Positions 40,294 to 55,862 of a DNA stretch of 64,000 bases are shown here, piece after piece. Origin of the DNA: Bradyrhizobium sp. ARR65 (GTDB taxonomy: Bacteria > Pseudomonadota > Alphaproteobacteria > Rhizobiales > Xanthobacteraceae). The notes beneath the pieces are model-generated. The model was given only the letters and a program-made list of their open reading frames with translations, did not search any database and was not told the origin of the DNA. Each line of letters begins with the position of its first letter. Position 1 is the stretch's first letter. The DNA is taken from positions 309 through 64,308 of the forward strand of contig NZ_AWZU01000019.1 in assembly GCF_000472385.1 (NCBI RefSeq). The letters run 5' to 3'. Both the position numbers and the translations under genes were made by a program.

Positions 40294-40404
40294 ATAAAGT
40301 TGTATGGGCAATCAACGACCAAAAATGGGACTCGCTCAGAATGCGATTGATTGCGAGATAGGAACGCCAGAGATTGGCCTGCAATGTCGGTCCGGAGACC
40401 CGAG

Positions 40405-40989
40405 ATGACCCTTCCTCGAGACACCAGCGAAGACATCCGTCGGCTGCAATCCGAAATGAGGGCCGCGGTCCGCGACCATTGGAAGGCCTTCTTGATCGAA
40501 GGCATTCTGCTGGTGATCCTGGGCCTTGCCGCCATCATCGTTCCGCCTCTCGCCAGCCTTGCGGTCACGATCTTTCTCGGCTGGATGTTCTTGATCAGCG
40601 GCATCGCCGGCCTGGTGCTGACCTTTTGGGCCCGCGCCATGCCAGGCTTCTGGTGGTCGCTGGTCTCGGCGATCCTCGCCATCATCGCCGGTGTCATCCT
40701 GCTGGCGCAGCCCGCGCAGGGTACCTATGCCCTCACTCTGGTCATCGGCGTCTATTTCCTGGCCGAGGGTGTCGCCACCATCATGTATGCGCTGGAGCAT
40801 CGACGCGAATTGTCGGAGCGCTGGGGCTGGCTGCTTGTCGCCGGTCTCGTCGATATCGTGATTGCCTTCATCATCATCTCGGGCCTGCCGGGATCAGCGG
40901 TATGGGCGATCGGGATTTTGGTCGGCATTAACCTTGTCTTCGGCGGGACCACGCTGATTGGAATGGCGCTGGCCGCCCGGCAGGCCTGA
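40405..40989 (+). CDS. HdeD-family membrane protein
   Basis: A 194-residue protein with six predicted helices arranged as three pairs. It begins MTLPRDTSEDIRRLQSEMRA and has the HdeD repeats (GILLVILGLAAIIVPPLASL, then AILAIIAGVILLAQPAQGTY). HdeD is linked to acid resistance in E. coli; its role in rhizobia is not established. The ATG at 40405 has ggag 7 bases upstream. An ATG at 40384 is less likely. Confidence 0.85.
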   Translation: MTLPRDTSEDIRRLQSEMRAAVRDHWKAFLIEGILLVILGLAAIIVPPLASLAVTIFLGWMFLISGIAGLVLTFWARAMPGFWWSLVSAILAIIAGVILLAQPAQGTYALTLVIGVYFLAEGVATIMYALEHRRELSERWGWLLVAGLVDIVIAFIIISGLPGSAVWAIGILVGINLVFGGTTLIGMALAARQA

Positions 40990-41037
40990 TGCTTTTTTTG
41001 GATGACAAGGGGCAACTGCTGCGCTAAGAGGGCGGCC

Positions 41038-41118
41038 ATGATCACCTTCGCCACCAGCTATTTTTGGTACTTTAGCTACGACAGCTCGCTGGCGGCGGGA
41101 GGATCGCGCTCAATCTGA
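41038..41118 (+). CDS. Aromatic leader peptide of the DAHP synthase gene
   Basis: A 26-codon frame with gagggcggcc just before its ATG. It starts MITFATSYFWYFSYDSSLAA; residues 8-14 are YFWYFSY, and seven of the first 14 residues are Phe, Tyr or Trp. It ends at TGA 41116-41118, 25 bases before an intrinsic terminator that precedes the DAHP synthase gene. Such a peptide senses charged tRNA-Phe, -Tyr and -Trp through ribosome stalling. Confidence 0.85.
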   Translation: MITFATSYFWYFSYDSSLAAGGSRSI

Positions 41119-41166
41119 AGAATTGCAGCAGACGTCCGAACAGCCGCCAGACCTGGCGGCTTTTTT
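41050..41166 (+). promoter_or_regulatory. Transcription attenuator (segments 1-4)
   Basis: Four segments fit the classic model. Segment 1 gccaccagc (41050-41058) pairs with segment 2 gctggcggc (41088-41096) with one mismatch. Segment 2 also pairs fully with segment 3 gccgccag (41143-41150) as antiterminator. Segment 3 pairs with segment 4 ctggcggc (41153-41160), which is followed by six T. Stalling at the aromatic codons (41059-41079) would mask segment 1 and free segment 2 for read-through. Confidence 0.82.
41143..41166 (+). terminator. Attenuator terminator
   Basis: GCCGCCA, loop gacc, TGGCGGC, then tttttt. It lies 93 bases upstream of the DAHP synthase start and is the 3:4 hairpin of the attenuator. 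Confidence 0.9.
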
Positions 41167-41185
41167 GTTGCCGGCAGGTCCTTAA

Positions 41186-41234
41186 GAGCATGGTCCGGAA
41201 AGGTGGATACCGGTTTTCCGAGAAGATCATGCTC
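41186..41234. repeat. Dispersed palindromic repeat, family B, copy 1
   Basis: An imperfect palindrome from gagcatggtccggaaa to ttttccgagaagatcatgctc. Related copies lie at 55815-55862 and 62407-62453. Here it sits between the attenuator terminator and the ribosome binding site of the DAHP synthase gene. Confidence 0.7.
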
Positions 41235-41258
41235 AATCAAGAGTCACAGGAGCCCGCC

Positions 41259-42344
41259 GTGTTGAGTACGACAGACGATCTTCGGATCAAGGAAATCAAG
41301 GAGCTGAGTACGCCGGAAGAGGTGATGCGCGAAGTCCCGCGCACCCTGACTGCGACACGCGTCGTCATGGCCGCGCGCAATGCCATTCACGGCATCCTCA
41401 ATGGCACAGATGATCGACTTCTGGTGATCGTGGGCCCCTGCTCGATCCACGATCCCGCGGCTGCAATCGACTATGCCGAACGGCTCGCCGCCATGCGTGA
41501 ACAGCTTTCCGACAGGCTCGAGATCGTCATGCGGGTCTATTTCGAGAAGCCGCGAACGACGGTCGGCTGGAAAGGACTGATCAATGATCCCGACCTCGAC
41601 GGCAGCTTCAACATCAACAAGGGCCTGCGGCTGGCGCGCTCCGTCCTCTCTGCGATCAACAATCTCGGCCTGCCGGCCGGGACCGAATTCCTCGATGTGA
41701 CCACGCCGCAATACATTGCCGACCTGGTGTCGTGGGCTGCGATCGGCGCGCGGACCACGGAAAGCCAGATTCACCGCCAGCTCGCCTCCGGCCTCTCCTG
41801 CCCGGTCGGCTTCAAGAACGGCACGGACGGCAACGTCCGCATCGCGGCTGAAGCGGTGATGGCGGCCTCGCATCCCCACCATTTCATGGCGGTCACCAAG
41901 GGCGGACGCTCGGCGATCGCGGCGACCAGCGGCAACCACGACTGCCATATCATCCTGCGGGGCGGCCGCGCGCCCAATTACGATTCTGCCAGCGTCGAGG
42001 CGGCCGCGGCCGAGCTCGCGCGATCAGGCGTGGCACCGCGTCTGATGATCGACACCAGCCATGCCAACAGCAACAAGAAACCGGAGAATCAGCCGCAAGT
42101 CGTCGCCGATATCGCTCGCCAGCTCTCCGAAGGCGAGCGCCGCATCCTGGGCGTCATGATCGAGAGCAATCTGCTCGCGGGGCGGCAGGACGTGCGGCCT
42201 GGTGCGGCGCTCGCCTATGGTCAGAGCATCACCGACGGCTGCATCGACTGGGAGACCACGGTGCCGGCCCTCAACCTCCTGGCCGACGCGGTCGCGGCGC
42301 GACGGCAGAGCCAGCGCGGCGACGTGCGGGAGTGTTCGGCCTAG
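41259..42344 (+). CDS. 3-deoxy-7-phosphoheptulonate (DAHP) synthase, class I AroF/G/H type
   Basis: A 361-residue enzyme that condenses PEP and erythrose-4-P in the first step of aromatic amino acid synthesis. Motifs are IVGPCSIHDP (about 58-67), FEKPRTTVGWKG (about 95-106), LPAGTEFLDVTTPQY, GARTTESQIHRQLASGLSCP and DTSHANSNKKP. It is the E. coli-like class I type with an N-terminal regulatory extension, so feedback inhibition by an aromatic amino acid is likely. GTG at 41259 is chosen because aggag lies 6 bases upstream; frames can be extended to ATG 41229 or 41190. Controlled by the attenuator just upstream. Confidence 0.92.
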   Translation: MLSTTDDLRIKEIKELSTPEEVMREVPRTLTATRVVMAARNAIHGILNGTDDRLLVIVGPCSIHDPAAAIDYAERLAAMREQLSDRLEIVMRVYFEKPRTTVGWKGLINDPDLDGSFNINKGLRLARSVLSAINNLGLPAGTEFLDVTTPQYIADLVSWAAIGARTTESQIHRQLASGLSCPVGFKNGTDGNVRIAAEAVMAASHPHHFMAVTKGGRSAIAATSGNHDCHIILRGGRAPNYDSASVEAAAAELARSGVAPRLMIDTSHANSNKKPENQPQVVADIARQLSEGERRILGVMIESNLLAGRQDVRPGAALAYGQSITDGCIDWETTVPALNLLADAVAARRQSQRGDVRECSA

Positions 42345-55735: not shown

Positions 55736-55814
55736 CGCTTGTTCTTCGTTGGTTTGAACAGCCTAGAGCGCGATGAGATCAGGTTGAATCGTCATCGCGC
55801 TCTAAGTTCTTTTA

Positions 55815-55862
55815 AGCATGATCTTTTCGGAAAACCGCTGCACACTTTTCCGGATCATGCTC
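55815..55862. repeat. Dispersed palindromic repeat, family B, copy 2
   Basis: A palindrome from agcatgatcttttcggaaaa to tttccggatcatgctc, between the SDR start and the recJ stop. Related to 41186-41234 and 62407-62453. Confidence 0.75.

Follow-up and report, generated by a model that had tools for sequence, protein, structure and literature searches.

The window, a 64,000-nt stretch of the Bradyrhizobium sp. ARR65 genome, contains in front of a class I DAHP synthase gene an element which very likely functions as a ribosome-mediated transcription attenuator of one of two DAHP synthases, responding to the charging of the Phe, Tyr and Trp tRNAs. The attenuator features found here are a leader with codons for the end products, mutually exclusive helices, a terminator and a biosynthetic gene for the sensed amino acids. 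The same layout, with leader codons lying between competing helices and followed by a terminator, is known from the E. coli pheA and trp attenuators (Phe_leader, RF01859), which control a different gene. Comparison with related sequences gives the reading as an aromatic attenuator good support.

Leader, potential helices and adjoining gene in the window

Direct reading gives a leader of 26 codons with ATG at 41038 and the stop codon TGA at 41116-41118. Seven of its first 14 residues are aromatic (positions 4, 8, 9, 10, 11, 12 and 14), and seven or more were reached in 14 of 200,000 shuffles of the 42 bases that encode these 14 residues. The preliminary description had reported this leader, with the run YFWYFSY at positions 8-14, and had located the stall codons in the gap from segment 1 to segment 2; both points held. 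It had also assigned the leader a ribosome binding site. GAGGG does precede the ATG in the window, yet Shine-Dalgarno-like 4-mers occur in just 4 of 91 aligned genus members, and a Shine-Dalgarno-led leader was rejected on this ground.

Table 1. Positions of the features of the putative attenuator and of the adjoining gene in the window.
Feature	Position	Strand	Basis
-35-like box ATGACA (genus consensus GTGACA)	41002..41007	+	nearly fixed distance in 91 aligned genus members
-10-like box CTAAGA (genus often CTATAG or CTATAT)	41024..41029	+	starts 14 nt before leader ATG
Leader peptide ORF, MITFATSYFWYFSYDSSLAAGGSRSI	41038..41118	+	read from the letters; leader in 92/92 genus loci
Segment 1, GCCACCAGC	41050..41058	+	pairing with segment 2; pair counts in alphaproteobacteria, weak beyond
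Putative stall codons Y F W Y F S Y	41059..41079	+	reading, genus alignment, codon shuffles
Segment 2, GCTGGCGGC	41088..41096	+	pairing energies, pair counts
Segment 3, AGCCGCCAG, terminator 5' arm and partner of segment 2	41142..41150	+	terminator call, pair counts
Segment 4, ACCTGGCGGCT, last loop bases and terminator 3' arm	41151..41161	+	terminator call, pair counts
Terminator U-tract TTTTTT	41161..41166	+	letters
Segment 5 (candidate), GCCGGCAGGT	41170..41179	+	88/92 genus members; own versus cross pairing; 7 later loci
Shine-Dalgarno AGGAG of the DAHP synthase gene	41248..41252	+	letters, relatives
Class I DAHP synthase gene (aroG/aroF type), probable GTG start	41259..42344	+	TIGR00034, PF00793; relatives' spacing and ribosome binding site

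In 89 of the 91 genus members a -10-like box begins 13-15 nt ahead of the ATG, and a GTGACA-like box lies about 16 nt ahead of it in the genus alignment, both patterns having been picked after the alignment was seen. A sigma-70 consensus scan of the window gave no promoter at the leader. The lack of a conserved Shine-Dalgarno sequence together with the position of the -10-like box suggests a leader RNA that is probably leaderless or almost leaderless; transcription would then start at the leader ATG or within a few bases of it. According to a study of B. japonicum, 192 of the start sites mapped in that organism coincide exactly with start codons (PMC4842269). In Burkholderia-like loci, TATA-like boxes were seen by eye farther upstream, which indicates that the leaderless arrangement is not general.

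Segments 1 and 2 can form a helix with one A-C mismatch (-13.9 kcal/mol), whereas segments 2 and 3 can form eight perfect pairs, 41089-41096 with 41143-41150 (-17.2 kcal/mol). The terminator is an 8-bp hairpin of -14.4 kcal/mol, made of AGCCGCCA (41142-41149), the loop GACC and TGGCGGCT (41154-41161), and ends in six T, which confirmed the intrinsic terminator proposed ahead of the aro gene. All three helices named in the preliminary description (1:2, 2:3 and 3:4) can thus form; its segments 3 and 4 were one base off at the loop, a placing that would leave a loop of 2 nt. The whole 153-nt stretch folded no better than its shuffles (z -0.73), a measure which is silent on alternative helices. 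A GGAGGA in the leader tail (41098-41103) is nearly invariant in the genus, appears as GGAGG- or GAGAGG-like sequences in other lineages and may pair with TCC ahead of the terminator. As a second ribosome site this GGAGG was set aside; by eye it was taken to belong to an extended 2:3 hairpin.

The gene product scored 524.9 bits against TIGR00034 (cut-off 173.2) and 311 bits against PF00793, in agreement with the class I DAHP synthase named beforehand. Its start is most likely the GTG behind AGGAG; ATG 41190, the start of the longest open reading frame, was rejected because relatives share both the AGGAG and the GTG. Between segment 5 and the ribosome binding site of the gene lies a palindromic dispersed repeat, GAGCATGGTCC...GATCATGCTC (41186-41234), whose 25-base pattern has 38 copies in the genome at up to one mismatch, this copy included. 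A second, less exact partial copy is found at 55814-55834 on the minus strand. The repeat overlaps a sub-threshold match to the Rfam family BASRCI27 (22 bits vs 59.8). The spacing from terminator to gene is 100 nt in the window against 38-52 nt elsewhere, and this long spacing is unique among the 92 genus loci.

Conservation across relatives

Upstream regions were searched for the combination of an aromatic leader with a terminator and with a 2:3 helix of 5 bp or more; an earlier, looser leader scan (110 loci) was superseded by this one, which also requires the 2:3 helix. Among 98 Bradyrhizobium genomes searched, 93 had the class I gene and 92 provided an upstream region (one contig ended), and all 92 regions carried the combination. 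Conservation of the leader frame and helices in relatives, proposed beforehand as a check, was therefore found. The combination did not occur in 258 reverse-complemented upstream regions or in 1032 dinucleotide shuffles, and within the window itself it was detected in 2 of 508 overlapping pieces, both of them the locus described here.

Outside the genus set, the combination was present in 56 of 80 named relatives and absent from 24, these 80 being the best of at least 592 places and leaning to close relatives. It was found among alphaproteobacteria in Bradyrhizobium (6/6), Mesorhizobium (3/3), Devosia and a Hyphomicrobiales MAG (4/4), Caulobacter (1/1) and a Rhodopila MAG (1/1). It was likewise present in Bordetella (1/1), Burkholderia-like genera (13/13), Oxalobacteraceae (12/13), Quisquiliibacterium (1/1) and beta-type MAGs (5/10), as well as in Xanthomonas-like loci (4/4), Dyella/Rhodanobacter (4/4) and a Lysobacterales MAG (1/1). 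In the same set it was absent from Leisingera (0/1), Rhodocyclales (0/3), Methylotenera (0/4), Chromatiales-like loci (0/3), Ferrovum (0/2, one with only 52 nt upstream), Luminiphilus (0/1) and other MAGs (0/4). Some of the failing loci carry a leader and miss another part (L077 from Leisingera, L048 and L073). In a sample of the phylum, 220 of 397 genomes had the class I gene, and the combination was present in 46 and absent from 43 of the 89 loci examined, of which 60 were hand-picked from the listed matches, and so non-random, and 10 came from the genus. The sets overlap: three loci are counted in the genus set and again in the phylum set, and five of the named Bradyrhizobium loci are probably loci of the genus set.

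A covariance model (R1) built from 38 alphaproteobacterial sequences gave one strong match (E < 1e-10), adjoining the class I gene, in 56 of 60 genus genomes; the four genomes with no match (G015, G032, G048 and G053) are the four of the 60 that lack this gene. In 241 genomes of the class, taken irrespective of the presence of the gene, R1 gave seven matches below 1e-8 besides the window. Six of these stand in front of a class I DAHP synthase; the remaining one is located at the end of a contig, on a stretch that has no such gene. That the element might serve at other places in the genome as a general aromatic regulator was rejected, as every strong match is next to class I DAHP synthase or at the end of a contig. 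The preliminary description had placed the leader in control of "the entry enzyme". The adjoining gene does encode a DAHP synthase, yet one of two, since 95 of 98 genus genomes, that of the window included, also encode a class II DAHP synthase. None of 12 upstream regions of class II genes examined carried the combination.

The 91 aligned genus leaders share without exception the Trp codon, the Tyr, Phe and Ser that follow it and, in segment 2, the residues LA. The codon preceding Trp encodes Phe in 75 and Tyr in 16, and the second codon before Trp is aromatic in 70 (Tyr 62, Phe 8; otherwise Asn 16, Ser 5). Phe4 of the window is not conserved (Phe in 5 of 91). The leader core deviates in one of the 92 genus loci (L198). 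Across 50 representatives, the in-frame stretch of eight codons holds on average 5.9 aromatic residues, a value partly selected by the leader scan; shuffles have 2.25, and the two other frames 1.6 and 1.3. Taking the entire peptide into account, 168 of the 191 leaders found contain all three aromatic amino acids, as do 34 of 50 non-redundant leaders. In 12 Oxalobacteraceae leaders the stall stretch has no Trp (two have Trp in the tail), which indicates that sensing of three amino acids is not universal. Four loci of one alphaproteobacterial genus (L199, L203, L204 and L206) have a variant leader, RFYWYR or RFYSYR, and in them segment 2 (AGCGG) and segment 3 (CCGCT) are altered together.

Pair counts favour helix 3:4 and, less strictly and on some measures, 2:3 and 1:2; kinship alone can lift such percentages, cell counts and scores above shuffles. 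In 33 diverse sequences, 98.9% of the 3:4 cells were paired against 93.1% in shuffles, with 23 double-changed cells against 6.4. On stricter measures, 3:4 showed three pairs changed on both sides vs 1.5 (reached in 22 of 500 shuffles) and seven further pair types vs 6.0 (56 of 500). For 2:3 in the same sequences, 84.5% were paired against 81.6% in shuffles (16-54% for slid partners), with 12 double-changed cells against 5.0. Its stricter measures gave no excess (three pairs changed on both sides vs 1.9, 83 of 500 shuffles; seven further types vs 7.2, 480 of 500). The inner five pairs of 2:3 are nearly always kept, and the two outer pairs and the last one are often missing. In 38 alphaproteobacterial sequences 2:3 is nearly invariant, so that 94.7% paired vs 94.3% in shuffles has little power; slid by -3, it gave 97.5% of fewer countable cells. 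In these sequences 78.3% of the 1:2 cells were paired vs 74.0%, with nine double-changed cells vs 3.0, four pairs changed on both sides vs 2.4 (80 of 500) and 12 further types vs 8.9 (14 of 500).

Duplex energies were compared in 50 non-redundant loci. The 2:3 duplex was better than with shuffled tails in 49 (z < -2 in 26), a result partly built in because only loci with a 2:3 helix of 5 bp or more had been included, and its own arms beat foreign arms in 33 (p 0.003). The 1:2 helix is weak across the phylum: it beat shuffles in 35 of the 50 loci, with z < -2 in eight, and own arms were better than foreign ones in 29 (p 0.04). The motif TGGCGG in the leader is read in frames that vary by lineage, as LAA in Bradyrhizobium, as RWQ in Devosia (there TGGCAG) and as WR in one Massilia, which points to selection on the RNA and not on the peptide.

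Predicted folding states and a candidate fifth segment

With Phe, Tyr and Trp tRNAs charged, the ribosome would pass Y-F-W-Y-F-S-Y and 1:2 would pair, which would leave segment 3 free for segment 4, and RNA polymerase would stop at the U-tract. If one of the three amino acids is scarce, the ribosome would stall at its codon between segments 1 and 2 and cover segment 1; segment 2 would then capture segment 3 and the polymerase would continue into the DAHP synthase gene. Partition-function folding with the ribosome footprint masked yields most of the states expected from this model. A transcript ending before segment 3 is predicted to form 1:2 (0.87), and the full transcript without ribosome 1:2 (0.85) and 3:4 (0.97). 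With segment 4 unmade and the ribosome on Tyr8, Trp10 or Phe12, 2:3 is predicted at 0.998. In the full transcript, 2:3 is predicted at 0.87 with the ribosome on Tyr8 and at 0.55 with it on Trp10; when the ribosome sits on Phe12 or Tyr14, 3:4 prevails (terminator, 0.97), so that antitermination at these codons would hinge on the order of synthesis. When segment 4 is unmade, 2:3 is predicted at 0.99 and 1:2 at 0.002 without ribosome, and 2:3 at 0.93 with the ribosome at the stop codon. Since equilibrium thus favours 2:3 before segment 4 exists, termination would require that 1:2 forms first and holds.

Segment 5, which follows the U-tract in 88 of the 92 Bradyrhizobium loci, is complementary to ACCTGGCGGC (loop and terminator 3' arm) with one G-G mismatch. 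In 50 representatives its pairing with its own partner was stronger than with foreign ones (mean -14.5 vs -12.1 kcal/mol; own better in 32, p 3e-5), and against shuffled downstream sequence z was below -2 in 14. The mean z was -2.0 in 26 alpha- and Xanthomonadales-like loci and 0.0 in the other 24, a grouping made after the scores were seen; the tests on all 50 and on the later loci below are independent of it. In the first group, the next stretch downstream had a mean z of +0.28, with none of 23 usable loci below -2. In seven later loci, fetched by covariance model, segment 5 had a mean z of -2.18 (5 of 7 below -2; control +0.37), and its own pairing exceeded cross pairing in 5 of 7. Among eight named representatives of the Oxalobacteraceae, none had z < -1.

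After read-through, segment 5 could pair with segment 4 and the terminator loop and block re-formation of the terminator. For the read-through RNA, 1:2 with 3:4 (0.41 and 0.44) and 2:3 with 4:5 (0.40 and 0.43) are predicted to be about equal. With the ribosome on codon 8, 2:3 and 4:5 are predicted at 0.90 and 0.99, and 3:4 at 0.008 with segment 5 vs 0.12 without it. We tentatively propose, at somewhat less than even confidence, a ladder of five segments (1:2, 2:3, 3:4, 4:5) in which segment 5, made past the U-tract, renders the decision to read on irreversible. Such a lock would hold the terminator hairpin open or stop the polymerase from sliding back to the U-tract. The idea that segment 5 keeps the Shine-Dalgarno sequence of the gene exposed gained no support (predicted exposure 0.24 with it, 0.34 with it shuffled; 24 loci). 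Segment 5 poses the question whether RNA made after a terminator helps to fix antitermination.

Alternative explanations, known attenuators and genome context

The hairpin might merely terminate the upstream HdeD-like (DUF308) gene (40351-40989), the aromatic ORF being incidental, and of 30 genus loci fetched with roughly 1.5 kb of flank, 29 do contain this gene. Yet the class I DAHP synthase genes of Mesorhizobium, Devosia, Caulobacter, Burkholderia, Xanthomonas and others still have the leader and terminator in front of them, and tblastn detected no HdeD-like gene in the named loci L008-L081. The HdeD gene and the leader are separated by a promoter-like box, and the strong R1 match is missing from exactly those 4 of 60 genus genomes that have no DAHP synthase. 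Simple termination of the upstream gene is consequently very improbable. Attenuation of the DAHP synthase gene could in practice respond to one dominant amino acid, such as the invariant Trp or the Tyr of the first stall codon, with the others as passengers. The invariance of Trp in all 91 aligned genus members next to two variable preceding codons, the lower predicted effect of stalls at later codons and the report that a Corynebacterium glutamicum leader with Phe and Tyr codons acts under Phe limitation (PMC11802643) speak for this. We regard it as rather unlikely, as Tyr, Phe and Trp all fall within codons 8-10, and stalls at codons 8 and 10 give an identical predicted fold before segment 4 is made.

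It is also conceivable that the terminated leader RNA or its peptide acts in trans as well, like Sinorhizobium rnTrpL/peTrpL. The peptide is nearly invariant in the genus, its tail GGSRSI included, and the probable leaderless start resembles that described for S. meliloti trpL (PMC7298713). On the other hand, segment 2 and its flank also account for conservation of the tail, which outside the genus diverges and shifts frame, and additional trans-action appears improbable, though less so than termination of the HdeD-like gene alone.

Attenuation of DAHP synthase as such is already known from Corynebacterium, where aroR, likewise a mixed leader (Phe-Tyr-Phe) and placed before aroF in C. glutamicum, is described as mediating ribosome-dependent attenuation (PMC11802643, PMC4046766). 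As far as their descriptions allow comparison, both elements consist of a short aromatic leader before the gene of one of two DAHP synthases; aroR belongs to an actinobacterium and reads Phe-Tyr-Phe, whereas the present leader occurs in Proteobacteria, combines Phe, Tyr and Trp and may have a fifth segment. The Acholeplasma uORFC-13-1 before aroF similarly joins a uORF with at least one Phe codon to a terminator before a DAHP synthase gene, but according to its description it has a ribosome binding site and is confined to Acholeplasma and environmental sequences (PMC8632094). The trpL attenuator of Sinorhizobium and Bradyrhizobium is likewise alphaproteobacterial, with a leaderless leader ORF in S. 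meliloti, but is described as sensing Trp only, before trpE(G) (PMC7298713). Attenuators have also been predicted before DAHP synthase genes in gammaproteobacteria, hence in other orders, namely before aroA-tyrA of two Vibrio species (PMC1173090), an operon with tyrA, and before aroF of Shewanella (PMC2659441); the accessible descriptions of these predictions mention no leader of the present kind. In the window and in 16 relatives, every Rfam leader family stayed below its gathering score (Phe_leader RF01859, 19.3 bits vs 55 in the window), and no description of the element was found in the open-access literature. Set against these precedents, its new features are the breadth of its occurrence, the mix of Phe, Tyr and Trp, the probable leaderless start and the candidate fifth segment.

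The genome of the window has a candidate Trp attenuator of its own, as its trpE(G) (L259, C9) is preceded by a Trp leader, MSTVFRPSGLWWPTL. By eye, TCTAGA stands shortly before the ATG of this leader, which may also be leaderless. Upstream of pheA in the same genome, no aromatic leader with terminator was seen. In another alphaproteobacterium, a cobalamin riboswitch (L276:2811-3017) lies just 3' of the class I DAHP synthase match (1676-2743).

In 78 hand-chosen genomes, the TyrR domain TIGR04381 exceeded its cut-off in none of 35 with the leader vs 10 of 43 without it (below the cut-off, one in each group), counts which ignore kinship. The leader may thus stand in for control by TyrR. With it, flux into the shikimate pathway would be set in the same way in many alpha-, beta- and gammaproteobacteria, by one RNA that senses the end products through the charging of tRNAs.
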